From NCBI GenBank assembly GCA_902793995.1, contig CADBFP010000012.1, positions 1 to 51,048 of the forward strand: a stretch of 51,048 bases of DNA, read 5' to 3'. Under the pieces are notes generated by a model. The model did not search any database. It was not told the origin of the DNA and was given only the letters and a program-made list of their open reading frames with translations. This document shows, in pieces, positions 8,308 through 48,829 of this stretch. Position 1 is the stretch's first letter. Each line of letters begins with the position of its first letter. This stretch comes from an uncultured Lachnospiraceae bacterium. Lineage in GTDB: Bacteria > Bacillota > Clostridia > Lachnospirales > Lachnospiraceae. A program made the translations under genes and the position numbers.

Positions 8308-8407
8308 GCTTGGAACTACGAAGTCGGGTTTGAACCCGAGCGCCGCGGAGCGGCGGATATCGTGCGTAGGGGCGACCAGTGGTCGACCGAGGGATTGCAA
8401 AAAATGC

Positions 8408-18092: not shown

Positions 18093-18093
18093 T

Positions 18094-18112
18094 TGGGGTG
18101 AGGGCGACTTGA
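18094..18112 (+). repeat. Partial GTGAGGGCGACTTG element before tsaD
   Basis: GGGGTGAGGGCGACTTGAGG is the 3' tip of the second palindrome family (complete at 47757 and 48590). It lies in the 30-bp rnz-tsaD gap, where its G-rich part may act as a distal ribosome-binding region. Confidence 0.55.
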
Positions 18113-19127: not shown

Positions 19128-19145
19128 GACGCGTGAGGTTTGTGG

Positions 19146-19199
19146 CGTAGGGGCGGCTATTAGCCGCACGAGTAGGGGCGAGCATGGCTCGTCCGCCGA
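19146..19199. repeat. Two GTAGGGGC palindromes after tsaD
   Basis: CGTAGGGGCGGCTATTAGCCG (19146-19166) and GTAGGGGCGAGCATGGCTCG (from about 19172) lie side by side. The inner arms differ (GGCT/AGCC against GAGC/GCTC) but each is self-complementary. Confidence 0.75.
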
Positions 19200-20774: not shown

Positions 20775-20877
20775 GGACGATTAATAATTGCCCCTACAGA
20801 GGATGCGTGAAGCCTGCCGCGTAGGGGCGAGCATTGCTCGCCCGCAGTATCAGGGCGATTGATAATCGCCCCTACGC
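20771..20877. repeat. Cluster of three GTAGGGGC palindromes
   Basis: Units at 20771-20800, 20821-20843 and 20848-20877 follow one another with cores ATTAATAAT, GAGCATTGCTC and ATTGATAAT. The first carries the TAG stop of the preceding gene. The last ends in GCCCCTACGCAG, 8 bp before the promoter of the YjjI gene. Confidence 0.8.
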
Positions 20878-20947: not shown

Positions 20948-22468
20948 ATGAGTGCTGCTTTAGATATTATCAAAGATCCTACCCTGACTTATAAGCAGGA
21001 ATTGCTGGCTCTGGCCCGCCTGGGGGAGGCCACGGACAATACCCTGCGCTACAGCGACGACTACTACGCCGCCAAGGAAAGCCGGGCCCTTTGCGACTTA
21101 AACGAAGGCCCCATGCCTTACCGACCCCGCTACATCTGCCCGGATTACAGCGTGCTTTTCAAGAAGGGCTCTGTTTTTCTGGAGCTGGAGCCCCCGAAGG
21201 ATCTGGCGGAGGCCTTAAACTCCCTGATGATCCTCTATCATCATGTGCCTTCCATAACGGCCTATCCCGTCTATCTGGGGGATCTGGACGCTTTGCTGGA
21301 GCCCTTTGTGCTGAAGGAAGAGCGGGCCTACGCCAAAAAGCTGCTGGGGCTGTTTTTAAAGCAGATCGATAAGACCCTGACGGATTCCTTCGTCCATGCG
21401 GACCTGGGGCCCCAGGCCAGCATCACCGGGGAGCTTTTGATGGAGCTGACGGAGGAGATGCAGCTGGCTATCCCCAATCTGACTTTGAAATACGACCCAG
21501 CGGTGACCCCGGAGGATTTCGCCTTAAAGGCGGTGCAGTGTATGCTGAAGACCGCCAAACCCTCCTTCGCCAACCACGGCATGTTTGTGAAGGAGTGGGG
21601 TGAAAAGTACGCCATTGCATCCTGCTACAACGGGCTGATGCAGGCCGGCGGCGGCTTTACCCTGCCCCGGCTGCGGCTGTATGAATGCTCCCTGGCGGCG
21701 AAGGATGCGGAGGATTTCCTGAACCGGGTGCTCCCGTATTACGCCGACCTGCAGTTTGAATATATGGACAAGCGGGTGAAATTCATTGTAGAGGAATCCA
21801 GCTTTTTTAAGACCAACTTCCTGGTGACGGAGGGCTTTGTGAAGCAGGAGAATTTCACCGGCATGTTCGGCCTGGTGGGGCTGGCGGAATGCTGCAACCA
21901 TTTACTGGGAATCACGGATCCCAAGAAAGGTTTTGGCCTGAATGAGGAAGCCACCGCCCTGGGACGGCGGATCATGGATAAATTGACGGAACTGGTGGAG
22001 GCCCACGAGGCGCCCTATTGTGAATCCACCGGCCACCGCTACCGTTTGCACGCCCAGGTGGGCATTGATTCCGACGGGCGGGAGGACGCCCCCGGCACCC
22101 GGATTCCCATAGGCGCCGAGCCGGCCATGCTGGACCAGCTGGCGGTGAACGAGCAGTTTCATCCCTACTTCCCTACCGGCACCGGGGATATCTTCAAATT
22201 CGAAGAGACCTATTTGAAGACCCCGGAGGCGGTGCTGCCCATTATTCAGGGGAGCTTGAAGCGGGGCCTCAGGTACTTCAGCGGCTATCTGGAAAATAAT
22301 GATGTGGTGCGGGTCACCGACTATCTGGTGAAGCGCTCCGAGATCGATAAACTCACGGCAGGGAAGCAGTCCCTGAACAATGTGACCATCTTCGGCAAGG
22401 GAGCCAAGGACTTTGGCGGGGCCCTGGACAGAAGAGTGCAGCATCATGAAGAAGATAGGAATCATTAA
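20948..22468 (+). CDS. yjjI: YjjI-type glycyl-radical enzyme homologue with Asp at the radical position
   Basis: The 506-aa protein has the reach of YjjI/DUF3029 proteins and pairs with a YjjW-type activase. The thiyl-radical loop is visible as GLVGLAECCNHLLG, with Cys315-Cys316. The C-terminal glycyl-radical loop aligns as VVRVTDYLV, where the family motif R-V-(S/T)-G-Y has Gly. Here codon GAC at 22319-22321 gives Asp458, one transition away from GGC. If real, no glycyl radical can form at this site. ATG 20948 has GAGGAAA 6 bases upstream, and the longer frame from 20834 runs through a repeat. The gene overlaps yjjW by 23 bp. Natural substrate of the family is unknown. Whether this copy works is doubtful. 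Confidence 0.82.
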   Translation: MSAALDIIKDPTLTYKQELLALARLGEATDNTLRYSDDYYAAKESRALCDLNEGPMPYRPRYICPDYSVLFKKGSVFLELEPPKDLAEALNSLMILYHHVPSITAYPVYLGDLDALLEPFVLKEERAYAKKLLGLFLKQIDKTLTDSFVHADLGPQASITGELLMELTEEMQLAIPNLTLKYDPAVTPEDFALKAVQCMLKTAKPSFANHGMFVKEWGEKYAIASCYNGLMQAGGGFTLPRLRLYECSLAAKDAEDFLNRVLPYYADLQFEYMDKRVKFIVEESSFFKTNFLVTEGFVKQENFTGMFGLVGLAECCNHLLGITDPKKGFGLNEEATALGRRIMDKLTELVEAHEAPYCESTGHRYRLHAQVGIDSDGREDAPGTRIPIGAEPAMLDQLAVNEQFHPYFPTGTGDIFKFEETYLKTPEAVLPIIQGSLKRGLRYFSGYLENNDVVRVTDYLVKRSEIDKLTAGKQSLNNVTIFGKGAKDFGGALDRRVQHHEEDRNH

Positions 22469-23495
22469 CAAAATCATTGCTTTTTCCAATGTGGACGGCC
22501 CCGGGAATCGGACGGCCGTCTTTTTCCAGGGCTGCAATCTGCATTGCCTGTATTGCCATAACCCGGAGACCATCCACTTTTGTGTGGGCTGCAGCGCCTG
22601 CTTAGCAGTCTGTCCGACGGGAGCTTTGGAAGGGGGGCACGGCAAAGCCGTGATGGGTGAGGGCGACATGCTGCAACCCGTCACCTGGCACCCCCAAAAA
22701 TGCATCTCCTGCGACGCCTGTATCAAGGCCTGCCCCCATCTGGCTTCTCCCAAAACCCGCCGGATGACAGCGGAGGAGCTGCTCACTGAAATCAAAAAAA
22801 CCGCCCCTTACATCAACGGTGTCAGTTTTTCCGGCGGCGAATGCACTCTGCAGCGGGACTTTTTGGTGGAGGTCATCCCCCTGATCCGTCAGCTGGGCCT
22901 GGGGGTTTTATTGGACTCCAACGGCACCTATGATTTTGAAAAAGATCCTGAGCTGCTGGAAATGATAGACGGCGTCATGCTGGACATCAAAGCGGTGGAT
23001 CCGGCCGTTTGCCGCACTCTCACCGGCGCCGGGCCGGAAATGCCCATAAAGAACCTAAAATACCTGCAATCCGTGGGCAAATTGGCGGAAGTCCGCACGG
23101 TTTTATTGCCGGAAGAAGGCGGCTCCTTGCCGGGTGAGGGGCAAAATCGTCGAAGCGCTGCCAGTGGCAGAGGAAGCGAGACGATTTTGGTGACATCGTC
23201 CGAAAAAGCGACCAGCGAGGGAAGCTTTTTCGATGACGATGGAGGGTGGCACGGCGAAGCCGTGACGGGTGAGGGCGACTTGCACCCACCCAATTCCATG
23301 AACGAACTTACCGTCCGCACCGTAGCCTCCCTGTTGTCTCCTGCCATCCCCTACAAACTCCTGCGTTACCGCCCTTTTGGCGTCCGGCAGGAGGGGATCG
23401 ATATCATCGGCAACACCATCACGGAGGAATCTGCCGCCGAGGCTCTGGCCGCTCTGGCACGCTCCCTGGGGGCAGAAAACTGCCGGGTGGTGTAA
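22446..23495 (+). CDS. yjjW: YjjW-type glycyl-radical enzyme activase with in-frame repeat insertions
   Basis: The 349-aa radical SAM enzyme has CNLHCLYC (CxxxCxxC for the SAM cluster, about 34-41), two ferredoxin-like clusters (CVGCSACLAVCP and CISCDACIKACP), SFSGGECTLQ and LLDSNGT. It should cleave SAM and abstract a hydrogen from the partner's glycine. Homologues are about 285-290 residues from memory. This one is about 60 longer because of two stretches: residues 63-74 between the ferredoxin motifs, and about 225-280 before YKLLRYRPFGVR. Both match the GTGAGGGCGACTTG palindrome family at DNA level and are read in the same frame. All cluster cysteines remain, so the fold may tolerate them. 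It starts inside yjjI with a weak SD. Confidence 0.88.
   Translation: MKKIGIINKIIAFSNVDGPGNRTAVFFQGCNLHCLYCHNPETIHFCVGCSACLAVCPTGALEGGHGKAVMGEGDMLQPVTWHPQKCISCDACIKACPHLASPKTRRMTAEELLTEIKKTAPYINGVSFSGGECTLQRDFLVEVIPLIRQLGLGVLLDSNGTYDFEKDPELLEMIDGVMLDIKAVDPAVCRTLTGAGPEMPIKNLKYLQSVGKLAEVRTVLLPEEGGSLPGEGQNRRSAASGRGSETILVTSSEKATSEGSFFDDDGGWHGEAVTGEGDLHPPNSMNELTVRTVASLLSPAIPYKLLRYRPFGVRQEGIDIIGNTITEESAAEALAALARSLGAENCRVV
22632..22670 (+). repeat. Palindromic element inside yjjW, copy 1
   Basis: GGGGGGCACGGCAAAGCCGT, then GATGGGTGAGGGCGACATG. It holds the stem CACGGC/GCCGTG and the GGGTGAGGGCGAC tip. It is translated GGHGKAVMGEGDM between the two ferredoxin motifs. Copy 2 at 23241-23282 is closely similar and in the same frame. 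Confidence 0.85.
23118..23282 (+). repeat. Composite palindromic insertion inside yjjW, copy 2
   Basis: Three hairpins follow one another: CAAAATCGTC (23142-23151) with GACGATTTTG (23180-23189); CGAAAAAGC with GCTTTTTCG (about 23200-23232), extended by ATCGTC/GACGAT; and CACGGC-GAA-GCCGTG (about 23249-23263) followed by GGGTGAGGGCGACTTG. It is translated in frame, ending GGWHGEAVTGEGDL, matching copy 1. Confidence 0.85.
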
Positions 23496-28275: not shown

Positions 28276-30081
28276 ATGAAAAAGTCATCTCTGATTGCCC
28301 TGGCCCTGGCGGCCACCCTGATTTTGGGCGGCGGCGGCGTATATGCCGCCGGACAGATTGCCCGCAGCAATGCCATCAGCGAAGAAAATGCCCGCAGCTT
28401 TGCCTATGTGGATGCGGGGATCCTGCCGGAAGAGGCGGAATATGTACGGACGAAATTCGACTTCAGCAGAGGGCGTTTTGTATATGAAATCGAATTTATT
28501 GCCCAGGGAATGCATTACGAATATACCCTGGATTCCGTTACCGGCGCTGTGATGGAGAAAGAAATAGAGACGGCCCAGAATGCCGTGGCCCGCTATACGG
28601 AACCTGCCTCGGCCCAGACTCTGCCCCAGCCGGAAACCTTGCCGGCGCAGCCCTCCCAGGCTGCCGCGGCGGCACAGATACTGACCTCGGAAGAGGCCAA
28701 ACAGCTTGTGCTGGCGCATCTGCAGCTGGATGAATCCTCTGCCCGCATCCTGGAAGCGAAACTGGATCGGGAAGACGGACAGCAGCTGTATGAAATTAAA
28801 GTAAAGGATCCCGCGGGATCCACCCATGAGTACAAATTGCATGCCGTAAACGGCAATATTGTGAAAGAAGTCCATAAGATCGCGGCGGCGGTGGTGCCGG
28901 GAAGCCAGGCGGCGGAATCTTCCGCAGCAGAAGCAACCCTCCCTACTCAGCCGGCGGGGCAGGGGACCTCCCAACCTGTAGCCCCTACGGTGCCTTCTGA
29001 GGCGAAGACGAGCGCGGCTCCTTCCCCCACCACCCACACGCCTGGCACAAAGCCGGTAGCCACACAGCCGGCAGCGACCCAGCCTGCGGTAACACGGCCG
29101 GCGGCGACTCAGCCTGCGGCGACGCAACCTTCGGCTACCCAGCCGGCGACAACGCAAGCTCCGGCCACCCAGCCAGCGACAACGCAAGCTCCGGCTACCC
29201 AGCCTGCGACGACGCAGCCTTCGGCTACCCAGCCGGCAACTACCCAGCCTCCGGCTACGCGGCCCGCAGCCACGCAGCCGACCCAGCCCGCCCAGCCCCA
29301 GGCCATAGGGGTGGAGGCGGCCAAGGCCATCGCCTTAAAGGATGCGGGGCAAACGGCGGCCGCTGTGGTTTTCACCAAGGCTCGGCAGGAAAAAGAGGAC
29401 GGAAGGCTCATTTACGACATTGAGTTTTACGTAAGCGGTCAAATGGAATATGAATATGAAATCGATGCCTACAGCGGTGCCATCCTGGAAAAGGATGTGG
29501 AGGCCACGGAAGCCTTAAAGGCAGCCCAGAGAGCCTCGGCGGAAGCTTCCCGCCAGGCAGCGGAAGCGGCTAAAGAAGCCTCTCGGAAAGCTGCGGAGGA
29601 AGCGGCGCGGAAATCCTCGGAAGAAGCAGCCCGTCAGGCTGCGGCGGAAGCCTCCCGTCAGGCAGCGGAAGCGGCCCGGAAAGCTTCTGAGGAAGCCTCC
29701 CGGAAAGCAGCCGAAGAAGCCTCCCGCCAGGCAGCGGAGGCAGCCCGGAAAGCTTCTGAAGAGGCCTCCCGGAAAGCAGCCGAAGAGGCCTCCCGGAAAG
29801 CCGCAGCCGAGGCAGCCCGCCAGGCCGCTGCCGCCAGCAGTGCCGCCGCAGCCACCCAGCCCCAGGTCATCTCCGTGGATAAAGCCAAAGAAATCGCCTT
29901 AAAGGACGCAGGTCTTGCTGTCTCCCAGGTTCAATTTGAAAAGGCGAAACTGGAGAGAGAAGACGGCCGTCTGGTGTACGAGATAGAGTTCTTTATCCGG
30001 GGGCAGAAAGAGTACGACTATGAAATCGATGCCTACACAGGGCGCATCCTGGAGAAGGATGTAGAGGATTGGGACGATTAA
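28276..30081 (+). CDS. Secreted four-domain PepSY protein
   Basis: The 601-aa protein has an N-terminal signal or anchor (about 4-24) and four PepSY-type units: about 33-98, 135-205, 340-410 and 535-600. Each ends in a Y-(E/K)-(I/L)-(D/H)-A-x-(S/T/N)-G-x-I-(L/V) motif. Units 3 and 4 are almost duplicates (AIALKDAG, DGRLIYDIEF/DGRLVYEIEF, ILEKDVE). Between units 2 and 3 lies a Thr/Pro linker of ATQPA repeats. Between 3 and 4 lies a long Ala/Ser/Glu/Arg helix with EASRQAAEAARKAS repeats. PepSY domains are thought to inhibit peptidases or sense wall state. It follows the two-component genes and shares their candidate operator. A strong terminator follows. Confidence 0.88.
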   Translation: MKKSSLIALALAATLILGGGGVYAAGQIARSNAISEENARSFAYVDAGILPEEAEYVRTKFDFSRGRFVYEIEFIAQGMHYEYTLDSVTGAVMEKEIETAQNAVARYTEPASAQTLPQPETLPAQPSQAAAAAQILTSEEAKQLVLAHLQLDESSARILEAKLDREDGQQLYEIKVKDPAGSTHEYKLHAVNGNIVKEVHKIAAAVVPGSQAAESSAAEATLPTQPAGQGTSQPVAPTVPSEAKTSAAPSPTTHTPGTKPVATQPAATQPAVTRPAATQPAATQPSATQPATTQAPATQPATTQAPATQPATTQPSATQPATTQPPATRPAATQPTQPAQPQAIGVEAAKAIALKDAGQTAAAVVFTKARQEKEDGRLIYDIEFYVSGQMEYEYEIDAYSGAILEKDVEATEALKAAQRASAEASRQAAEAAKEASRKAAEEAARKSSEEAARQAAAEASRQAAEAARKASEEASRKAAEEASRQAAEAARKASEEASRKAAEEASRKAAAEAARQAAAASSAAAATQPQVISVDKAKEIALKDAGLAVSQVQFEKAKLEREDGRLVYEIEFFIRGQKEYDYEIDAYTGRILEKDVEDWDD

Positions 30082-31951: not shown

Positions 31952-32068
31952 GCGTAGGGGCAGGCATTGCGACGGCGCGCAGCGCCTAGTCCTTTAGGGC
32001 CCGCCCTCAGGATGGAACGCGTCAAGGAGCTCGGGCGGCTGATAGCCGCCCCTACGCAGTAGGGCCCG
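31952..32068. repeat. Palindrome cluster with a 30-bp inserted unit
   Basis: The palindrome GTAGGGGCAGGCATTG...CCCGCCC is split at its centre by a 30-bp unit at 31970-31999 (CGACGGCGCGCAGCGCC, then TAGTCCTTTAGGG). An intact relative without the unit stands at 36124-36147 on the other strand. A second palindrome, GGGCGGCTGATAGCCGCCCC with TACGCAG, follows at about 32034-32060. The unit recurs exactly at 50915-50944. Confidence 0.85.
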
Positions 32069-34857: not shown

Positions 34858-35136
34858 TGTCCTGCGGGCGGCTGGTAGCCGCCCCTACATTAGAAGGAAG
34901 GCCCTGCTGCGCGCAGGGCCTATTGAATGAGAATCTGCCTAAAGGCAGATAAGGCGGCTGGTAGCCGCCCCTACGCTGCGGGAGCTGCGCATTCTGCAGA
35001 TGAACCAATTGAGGACATCTTCTGCGTAGGGGCGATGGCCCAGGCCACCTTCTCTTGCACCTTCGGTGCAATTCACCTTGTTATCAATCGCCCGGGGACT
35101 GCTACTGGTCAAAATACGCGGGCGGCTGGTAGCCGC
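34858..35136. repeat. Intergenic cluster of palindromic repeats
   Basis: This 358-bp gap contains no gene. It holds GGGCGGCTGGTAGCCGCCCC units at about 34866, 34953 and 35120, a GGCCCTGC/GCAGGGCC hairpin (about 34902-34920) and an AATCTGCC/GGCAGAT hairpin. It also holds a composite element at 35021-35094, whose reverse complement recurs, carrying an extra 30 bp, at 50863-50960. The composite contains the hairpin TTGCACC-TTC-GGTGCAA. Confidence 0.85.
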
Positions 35137-35145
35137 CCCTACATT

Positions 35146-35178
35146 AAAAGGATGACAGAGGTACATCCCCTGTCATCC
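35146..35178 (-). terminator. TGACAG/CTGTCA repeat acting as terminator of the acyltransferase gene
   Basis: GGATGACAG (35150-35158) pairs with CTGTCATCC (35170-35178). On the minus strand it is followed by TTTT. A related hairpin stands at 23502-23528. Confidence 0.7.
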
Positions 35179-41975: not shown

Positions 41976-43118
41976 TTATTTCAGCTCGAAAGCAGGGCAA
42001 TCCGCCACAGTGGTGGGAACTTTGTACTTGCCGGCAATGATATCGGCCTTCTTTTCTTCCACCAGCTTCAGCACATCTTCAGGGATGTGGGTCCGGGTAG
42101 GAGCCAGGTCCACACCGCCGTTGGACAGGTCATACTTGTATTCGCCGCCCTTGTAGGTGCCGGCCTTCACAGCCTTGGAAATATCCTGAGCCGCCACGTC
42201 CACCCGCTTCATGGCGGAGGTGATTACGTGCTCGGGAGACAGAGAAGCCTGGTCCGTATCTACGCCGATGGCCCAGATGCCTTCTTCCGCACAGGCGTTA
42301 ATCACACCGATACCGGTGCCGCCGGCCGCGTGGTAAATCACATCAGCGCCCTTGGTGATCATATCCTTGGCAGCGGTCTGGCCGCCGGGGATATCGCCGA
42401 AAGCGTTGGCATTGTACTGCAGAACCTTCGCATCGGGGCAGGCTTCCAGCACGCCGGTGATGTAGCCGATGCCGAAGAGGTTCATGGTATCGGATACCAT
42501 GCCCTGCACATAGCCGACGGTTTTGCTCTTGGTGACGGAACCGGCCACCAGGCCTACCAGGTAGGAGGCTTCTTCCTGAGCGAACATCAGGCAAGCCACA
42601 TTGGGCAGGTCGGCGCAGGTAGCATCGTCAATGATGGCGAACTTCTGGTCGGGGTTGGCCGTGGCGGCTTCCTTGGTGGCATCCGCCAGCATGTAGCCTA
42701 CGCAGATGATCAGGTCGTAGCCGTCATCGATAAAGGTGTTGATGTTGGTCTGGTAGTCCGCATCCGTCTTGGATTCCAGATACTTGACTTCAAAGGTGGG
42801 GTCTTCCGCCTGCAGGGCCTGCAGACCTTCCCAGGAAGTCTGGTTAAAGGACTTGTCGTTCACGCCGCCTACGTCCGTTACCATACCGATTTTGATTTTA
42901 TCGGAAGTGGGAGCGGGAGCCACGGTGGTCTCCGGGGCTTTGGTGGTCTCGGGAGCCTTGGTGGTCTCCGGGGCTTTGGTGGTCTCAGGAGCCTTGGTGG
43001 TCTCCGGGGCCTTGGTGGTCTCAGGGGCCGCCGTGGTGGTGGGCGTGCTGCCGCCGCCGCAGGCCGCCAGACCCAGTACCAGGCAGATAGACAGGGTAAG
43101 TGCCAGGATCTTCTTCAT
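41976..43118 (-). CDS. BMP-family nucleoside-binding lipoprotein
   Basis: The 380-aa protein has lipobox LAAC with Cys20, then a linker of five or more APETTK units (18-bp tandem repeats), then the BMP domain with KIGMVTDVGGVNDKSFNQTS, WEGLQALQ, FAQEEASYLVGLVAG and YHAAGGTGIGVINAC. The family binds purine nucleosides on the membrane surface and hands them to the permeases at 39097 and 38156. It is transcribed from its own promoter, divergent from the purine operon, with a terminator behind it. This usually gives more binding protein than transporter. Confidence 0.93.
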   Translation of the reverse strand: MKKILALTLSICLVLGLAACGGGSTPTTTAAPETTKAPETTKAPETTKAPETTKAPETTKAPETTVAPAPTSDKIKIGMVTDVGGVNDKSFNQTSWEGLQALQAEDPTFEVKYLESKTDADYQTNINTFIDDGYDLIICVGYMLADATKEAATANPDQKFAIIDDATCADLPNVACLMFAQEEASYLVGLVAGSVTKSKTVGYVQGMVSDTMNLFGIGYITGVLEACPDAKVLQYNANAFGDIPGGQTAAKDMITKGADVIYHAAGGTGIGVINACAEEGIWAIGVDTDQASLSPEHVITSAMKRVDVAAQDISKAVKAGTYKGGEYKYDLSNGGVDLAPTRTHIPEDVLKLVEEKKADIIAGKYKVPTTVADCPAFELK

Positions 43119-47756: not shown

Positions 47757-47823
47757 GCCCTCCCCCTGACGAGGGGGAGGGTGTCACAGCCTCTATGAGG
47801 CTGTGACGGGAGGGGGCGACTTT
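47757..47823 (+). repeat. Complete GTGAGGGCGACTTG-family palindromic element
   Basis: CCCTCCCCCTGACGAGGGGG with AGGG forms the first hairpin. GTCACAGCCTC-TAT-GAGGCTGTGAC is a perfect 11-bp second hairpin. GGGAGGGGGCGACTTT is the tip. The tip's GGGAGGGG lies 8-15 bases before ATG 47824 and is the only SD for purN. Confidence 0.88.
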
Positions 47824-48432: not shown

Positions 48433-48761
48433 GGGCTTCGCGGAAACGACGAAAACTTTTCTCGCCCCGCTTCGCAGAAGGGGCATCGAAAAGTATTGTC
48501 GTTCCGCTGCGCCCTGCGCGTAGGGGCGACCATTGGTCGCCCGCTCCCGGGCGGCTCCCCCCTGGGGATCGCAGGCAACGCTTGCCCTCCCCCTGACGAG
48601 GGGGAGGGATGTCAGCGAAGCTGACAGGGAGGGGGCGACTTGCCGCAACCTTCATCGCCCGCTCCCGGGCGGCTCCCCCCTGGGAATCGCAGGCAACGCT
48701 TGCCCTCCCCCTGACGAGGGGGAGGGATGTCAGCGAAGCTGACAGGGTGAGGGCGACTTGC
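48433..48761. repeat. Tandem repeat block between purN and the IMP cyclohydrolase gene
   Basis: No gene is seen here. ACGACGAAAACTTTTC (about 48447) and GAAAAGTATTGTCGT (about 48487) form an imperfect long hairpin. A GTAGGGGCGACCATTGGTCG unit follows. Two copies of a 107-bp unit lie at 48537-48643 and 48655-48761, 118 bp apart, with three differences. Each contains the CCCTCCCCCTGACGAGGGGG hairpin, GTCAGC/GCTGAC and the GGCGACTTG tip. Confidence 0.88.
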
Positions 48762-48829
48762 AGGACAGCAATATCCGACTATCATTATCAACCACCCATA
48801 TAGTAATACTTTATTTTACGGAGGAAACC

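Follow-up and report, generated by a model that had tools for sequence, protein, structure and literature searches.

The stretch of DNA analysed here (the window) was 51,048 nt in length, came from an uncultured Lachnospiraceae bacterium and contained yjjW, a glycyl-radical-enzyme activase gene with two in-frame insertions (Table 1). The yjjW product matched TIGR04041 with 293.7 bits (cut-off 250.2; E 1.3e-87) over residues 5-223, and it was also matched by the family models Radical_SAM and Fer4. The TIGR04041 match stopped at residue 223, just ahead of insertion 2; the later part of the protein was backed by the conserved C-terminus of its orthologues. The first-pass annotation had stated that the reading frame survives the insertions, and this was upheld by the open ORF and the matched Radical_SAM and Fer4 motifs.

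Two segments of yjjW had been described as copies of one element translated in the same frame, and both parts of this description held. Positions 22631-22679 and 23243-23291 were 86% identical over 49 nt, and the tips of the two copies, at 22652 and 23264, started 612 nt (204 codons) apart and therefore shared one frame. Insertion 1 was located between two Fer4 (ferredoxin) motifs. A minimum free energy fold of a single 66-nt RNA stretch at this site paired otherwise than hairpin 2, with a z-score of -1.64, which was not significant. Insertion 2 was about 165 nt long (about 55 residues), and the two further hairpins noticed in it proved to be P1 and P2 of a repeated 106-nt module. With the ATG at 22446 taken as residue 1, the inserts corresponded to about residues 62-78 and 228-283; the two sites proposed earlier were retained, while their extents were shifted, the second starting near 23128 and not at 23241. 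The strand preceding insertion 2 aligned to residue 171 of pyruvate formate-lyase activase (3c8f), and both insertion sites are plausible as putative loops.

Table 1. Features of the yjjW locus, intergenic copies of the element in the window and module copies in Vescimonas fastidiosa.
Feature	Location	Strand	Basis
yjjW, YjjW-family glycyl-radical-enzyme activase with both insertions	22446-23495	+	ORF, TIGR04041, Radical_SAM/Fer4, orthologue C-terminus
Insertion 1: 5'-truncated element (hairpin 2 and right tail), read as GGHGKAVMGEGDMLQP	22631-22679	+	identity to 23243-23291, genome search
Hairpin 2 of insertion 1, CACGGC / AAA / GCCGTG	22638-22652	+	stem scan
Insertion 2: composite of remnant left arm, 106-nt module, hairpin 2 and right tail	23128-23292	+	repeat matches, orthologues; left end (~23128) placed by eye
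106-nt two-hairpin module, second repeat family	23140-23245	+	model R1 match, E 3.3e-27 (this copy was also among the 14 used to build R1)
Module hairpin P1, conserved internal loop	23142-23189	+	fold and covariation
Module hairpin P2	23194-23241	+	fold and covariation
Hairpin 2 of insertion 2, CACGGC / GAA / GCCGTG	23250-23264	+	stem scan
Intergenic element copy, two hairpins and tail	47757-47822	+	sequence matches, fold
Intergenic element copy	48582-48643	+	sequence match, fold
Intergenic element copy, query for the genome search	48700-48762	+	sequence match, fold
Vescimonas fastidiosa intergenic module copy	L265:1497-1602		R1
Vescimonas fastidiosa intergenic module copy	L265:1974-2078		R1
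Vescimonas fastidiosa intergenic module copy	L266:1510-1615		R1

The full unit of the basic element consisted of hairpin 1 (CCCTC...GAGGG, with arms of the type CCCTCTCCC...GGGAGAGGG), hairpin 2 (CACGGC...GCCGTG type) and the tail GGGTGAGGGCGACTTGC; the 106-nt module could stand between the two hairpins. With up to 3 mismatches allowed, the window contained 5 occurrences of the tip GACRGGNGAGGGCGACTT; shuffling gave an expectation of 0.30, and none of 100 shuffles reached a count of 5. With up to 2 mismatches, the draft genome (G000; 2.17 Mb in 64 contigs, the window being contig C12; 93.05% complete, 2.26% contaminated) contained 47, against 1 for the backward pattern. Three genome searches were combined, with neighbours within 80 nt joined, and gave at least 73 element sites, a lower bound, since two of the searches had 63 and 62 candidates, of which 40 each were scored. 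The element was thus present elsewhere in the genome, as the first-pass annotation had anticipated. Another tip-like match, with 3 mismatches, was seen at 18093-18110.

Stems were inspected in 33 copies, namely 31 of the 47 genome tips and two from the window whose tips were weaker. Directly 5' of the tail, 18 of the 33 had a perfect stem of 5 bp or more; their 5' arms were of 10 different kinds, and a few of the 5-bp stems are possibly due to chance. In 12 of the remaining 15 copies, the loop was replaced by TGTCGAAGG, a part of the palindrome CCCTGAGCTTGTCGAAGGG, so that a second palindrome is nested at hairpin 2. A stretch related to CCCTGAGCTTGTCGAAGGG was translated as LSLSKG in purL (L058, L059).

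At ≤1 mismatch, the tip was found 38 times in G000, 22 times in G006, 10 times in G012, 5 times in G010, twice in G009 and once in each of three other members of the genus; it was absent from eight genus members and from all 45 genomes searched outside the genus. The backward control of this search matched G002 at 2 places, and G018 and G036 at one place each. An exact tip was present in G000 alone among 391 genomes of a class sample in which no other genus member was included. No match was obtained in phage records. A viral origin was considered and rejected: the sole exact match in viral contigs (L264) lay inside a coding sequence and looked like chance. Two weak Rhizobium plasmid matches were seen in the plasmid search.

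The 106-nt module gave at least 14 long matches in G000, the yjjW copy included, and at least 16 matches to model R1. An alignment of 14 copies (12 from G000 and two from Lachnospiraceae goat-omasum MAGs, L126 and L127) was used for the covariation count, after exclusion of the rearranged copies L071 and L072. In this alignment 15 of 35 pairs were changed on both sides, and 98.8% of 490 cells paired, a figure that is favoured by the derivation of the structure from the same 14 sequences; double-sided differences were seen in 52 cells and one-sided differences in 2, and 6 cells were unpaired. The covariation score was reached by 0 of 500 shuffles, and the fold of the yjjW copy had a z-score of -3.73. 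Because G-U intermediates were nearly absent, the pairing in the module is suggested to be kept at the DNA level. Search of Rfam revealed nothing above the gathering score at the module (10 loci at E up to 1; 3 loci at E up to 5). Below it, L126 gave two matches to Atu_C8 (27.1 and 22.6 bits; gathering 50) and one to the edge of sX4 (31.4; gathering 70).

Nine of the 16 genus members were matched by model R1, as was, weakly, 1 of 45 other genomes; the match in G052 was weak and without most of P2. P1-like stretches of Vescimonas fastidiosa (Oscillospiraceae) were found through the plasmid search, and R1 matched this species at full length with E values of 6.8e-15, 4.4e-14 and 5.3e-12; therefore, the module family appears to be wider than the genus. 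In the Vescimonas copies the apex of P1 was nearly unchanged, P2 had diverged, and several pairs, mostly in P2, were non-standard. No Rfam match was present among those listed for locus L265. In relatives, 5 of the 25 module loci scanned had a through-frame of at least 45 codons on both sides, none of them gene-like by eye. Some module copies were near tRNA genes: one tRNA lay about 75 nt from the module at L126:4104-4371, five tRNA matches were near the copy at L079, and the flanks at L073 and L074 resembled tRNA 3' halves by eye.

Eleven of 72 examined element sites (one of the 73 was without a locus) were in frame within open genes, in nine functionally unrelated proteins: yjjW (2), purL (2), mutL, ecfA1-ecfA2, nadD-HAD, DUF2344, DUF1385, CobW and GNAT. 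The suggested search for the element inside other genes thus yielded eight proteins besides yjjW. In purL, TIGR01857 continued over the insert (135-623 and 629-1239); in mutL, the TIGR00585 match spanned it. In the ecfA ORF the element (441-492) lay between ECF_ATPase_1 (147-422) and ECF_ATPase_2 (498-771), and in nadD-HAD the element (242-274) followed NadD (30-240), with HAD from about 273. TIGR03936 was also matched in two stretches in this set of hosts, CobW was supported in an NCBIfam-type search, and DUF1385, cobW and DUF2344 were supported in a second search. GNAT was a weaker case, with family support on one side of the element only. No Pfam match was obtained for the long ORFs over elements at L010, L022, L055 and L076, which were left out of the count.

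The 11 sites were chosen for an open frame, so their openness is no test in itself, and genes that an element had destroyed in the distant past would escape recognition. A codon model that uses no families, partly trained on window genes (there 203 of 250 positions right and 27 uncalled), called an open, in-frame reading at 8 of the 72 element sites. For comparison, it assigned 487 out of 1000 random positions of the window to one frame, with intervening stops ignored. The model made no call on either side at 33 of the 72 sites and missed 3 of the 11 in-frame sites (yjjW site 1, one purL site and ecfA). These results showed that the elements are scarce in genes and that the recognised intragenic ones keep the frame. 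A conserved gene split by an element was also looked for. Six same-strand sites were flagged (five were inspected; the sixth is intergenic within the window), and all lay between genes, some giving C-terminal tails. At L005:1501-1559 and L026:1501-1574, elements at gene ends supplied C-terminal tails and stops, e.g., in an RlmL-type methyltransferase.

YjjW orthologues were found in 7 genomes besides G000 among 61 (E ≤ 1e-30), and a YjjW scan of the genome-contig collection revealed no relative. Six of the seven orthologues, five of the six from the same genus and the one from another genus, had no recognisable element; the inserted residues were thus not shared by the one orthologue from outside the genus, and the earlier interpretation was not refuted on this point. 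Site 2 was without insert in G003, G007, G010, G011, G015 and G031 (G010 and G031 compared as protein only), and site 1 lay in a linker of variable length. The linker at site 1 was long also in relatives without the element, and the elements thus explain just part of its length variation. G006, of the same genus, carried a tail-derived partial copy at each yjjW site, both with GEGD and in the same frame.

Orthologue alignments covered yjjW, purL, mutL, nadD-HAD and ecfA. Within the genus, the inserts of purL (15 rows), mutL (16) and nadD-HAD (8) were in variable linkers between conserved blocks. Linker A of purL held the element reversed in G000 and forward in G006 and G012, and linker B held it also in G012. 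In G000, ecfA1 and ecfA2 were joined by a composite element. Thirteen of 15 relatives were examined for this gene pair (G004 was without a match, and the parts were on different contigs in G001): EcfA1 and EcfA2 were separate ORFs in nine, and were fused with a different, element-free linker in G014, G013, G008 and G005. A TTG six codons ahead of the conserved LRL of ecfA2 is a possible separate start. Gene fusion as a general outcome was not retained; nadD-HAD is fused in relatives without the element, and ecfA1-ecfA2 is therefore the sole remaining candidate.

Very probably, the yjjW copies are non-autonomous modular palindromic repeats, a REP/MITE-like selfish DNA, tolerated as passive linkers where length, frame and position allow. 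The basis for this reading is formed by the repeat families, the in-frame placement, the linker positions in the proteins with aligned orthologues, the different frames and orientations, the occupation of one purL linker by elements in each of three species, and the partial yjjW copies of G006. The palindromic repeats would have multiplied within one genus, and copies landing in genes would persist only where the net gain in length is a whole number of codons, no stop occurs in the frame that runs through the element, and the site is a flexible linker, a junction or a protein end. The element would then be translated in vivo as a passive extra linker, the added peptides would be neutral, and an enzyme acting on hairpin DNA may provide the mobility. 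More tentatively, and with greater doubt than belief, the modular, nested palindromes might be a continuing source of linkers that recolonises the same linkers across species and bridges ecfA1 and ecfA2, and the module common with Vescimonas, together with its nearly strict Watson-Crick covariation, might reflect an undescribed mobilisation or correction of hairpin DNA.

The inserted peptides could instead be functional and selected, for example with a GEGD-type motif as a binding or regulatory segment. The forward copies in yjjW (two), mutL, ecfA and DUF2344 were all read in the GEGD/GAGD frame, and GEGD was kept at both yjjW sites in G006. Of the three forward frames of the element itself, however, GEGD was open in the most copies (over 48 nt in 19 of 33, against 7 and 6 for the other two; the reverse frames were open in 32, 32 and 22), and the common frame of the yjjW copies is for this reason no sign of peptide selection. 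A frame preference, which had been raised for testing, was rejected as a sign of selection for the peptide. Unrelated peptides were produced by the reverse copies in purL, nadD-HAD, CobW and GNAT, the nine hosts share no function, and the module copies of yjjW and ecfA, identical at 98 of 106 positions, were read in phases 1 and 0. Because a near-identical module is read in two frames, the conserved unit looks to be the DNA and the peptide incidental, as judged from sequence, and a functional peptide is very unlikely.

It is unlikely as well that the module is a structured regulatory RNA, either riboswitch-like or an sRNA, and overlaps the coding sequences of yjjW and ecfA by chance. Such an RNA would agree with the two hairpins and their conserved internal loops, the low z-score of the yjjW copy, the covarying pairs, the matches in another family (Vescimonas) and the tRNA genes near some copies; however, the changes were almost all from Watson-Crick to Watson-Crick pairs (52 double-sided against 2 one-sided cells), where a constraint at the RNA level would be expected to leave G-U intermediates, and Rfam had no match above the gathering score at the module. 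A misplacement of repeats into genes by assembly or binning could be feared in a draft of this contig number, completeness and contamination. It is highly improbable: in-frame purL elements were present in G006 and G012 too, G006 had its partial yjjW copies, and the protein families continued over the inserts. That the inserts are removed from the RNA or skipped in translation is scarcely credible; the module would form strong hairpins in the mRNA, but open frames through the inserts would then be needless, and we know of no excision signal for such inserts.

A RAYT was considered as the mobiliser. PF01797 (RAYT-type) had two matches in the genome, one above the cut-off; no tip at ≤4 edits was found within 3.2-3.3 kb around either match, and the candidate was rejected. 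An ORF of 286 aa at L124 (C4:81727-82053), encoding a RAYT-like Y1 transposase, was flanked by a different repeat, translated as GTRGRFFPSH, which was not the tip. In the comparison with MITEs, outer CCCTC/GAGGG arms and many copies were observed, the element ends being approximate.

Rickettsia palindromic elements (RPEs) are described, in passages of PMC10969869 and PMC3733652, as palindromic repeats that lie between and inside unrelated genes, in frame, and add peptides. The intragenic share differed: 11 of 72 examined sites here, against nearly half of the RPE copies of R. conorii as given in a passage of PMC10969869. Like RPEs, the present element was found inside and outside genes, in frame, in unrelated hosts and with the ORF preserved; unlike them, it has a clostridial host, is modular and nested, and is read in several frames and both orientations. 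NCBIfam includes RPE models, and no RPE-domain model was among the NCBIfam matches listed for the host proteins; no Rickettsia record was among the plasmid matches. Because RPE homology was compared just through family models and plasmid records, in which no relation was apparent, the element is not filed as an RPE and is set apart as an in-frame palindromic element.

GTAG/CGTC REPs were reported inside ORFs of several species by Di Nocera and colleagues in 2013; according to passages of that paper, dimers or groups encode 20-30 residues and clusters 43-82, several are in DNA-repair genes, and REP ends often give stop codons (PMC3733652). The first-pass annotation had proposed an independent clostridial case resembling RPEs. 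This was supported, as a further lineage and not the second, because in-frame intragenic REPs outside Rickettsia are already described in the passages of PMC3733652. The insert in mutL and the elements forming C-terminal tails are points of likeness to these REPs. Unlike GTAG REPs, the present repeat has a hairpin foot without GTAG, a two-hairpin unit of about 65 nt, the 106-nt module and no linked RAYT. GTAG was not found at the hairpin foot in 33 copies; it was present in 2 of 33 upstream stretches and absent from the tip. CGTC, counted irrespective of its position, was present in 6 of 33 copies, and module P2 has CGTC within the stem.

Pneumococcal BOX elements are modular, with interchangeable sub-units, and the present element resembles them in this build. 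Enterobacterial RU/ERIC MITEs are, according to PMC2759123, small mobile repeats in genes with open frames maintained; the open frames are alike, while size and host differ. In Nematomorpha mitochondria, inverted repeats are in translated genes and both arms code for conserved protein regions, as stated in a passage of PMC6649704, whereas the present repeats are in variable linkers. Among the open-access matches listed, none was recognised by title or abstract start as a report of in-frame palindromic elements from Clostridia, Lachnospiraceae included, which does not prove absence.

Sixteen genomes from a single genus, some with and some without elements, form a comparative system for palindrome insertion into proteins that is far from Rickettsia. 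The results suggest that selfish DNA can drive the lengthening of linkers and, possibly, the fusion of genes. That one DNA unit is read in more than one frame shows why function need not be expected of such peptides; for annotation, genes with such inserts need not be pseudogenes.

The window held other repeats. Short palindromes, of the GCGTAGGGGCGACCATTGGTCGCCCG and GGGCGGCTGATAGCCGCCCCTAC types, were located at 8364-8389, 19145-19195, 20819-20844 and 48518-48543, and at 32031-32065 and 34864-35152. Tandem repeats at 29006-29305, 29521-29834 and 42907-43055, with spacings of 15, 21-24 and 18 bp, are probably low-complexity protein segments of different origin.
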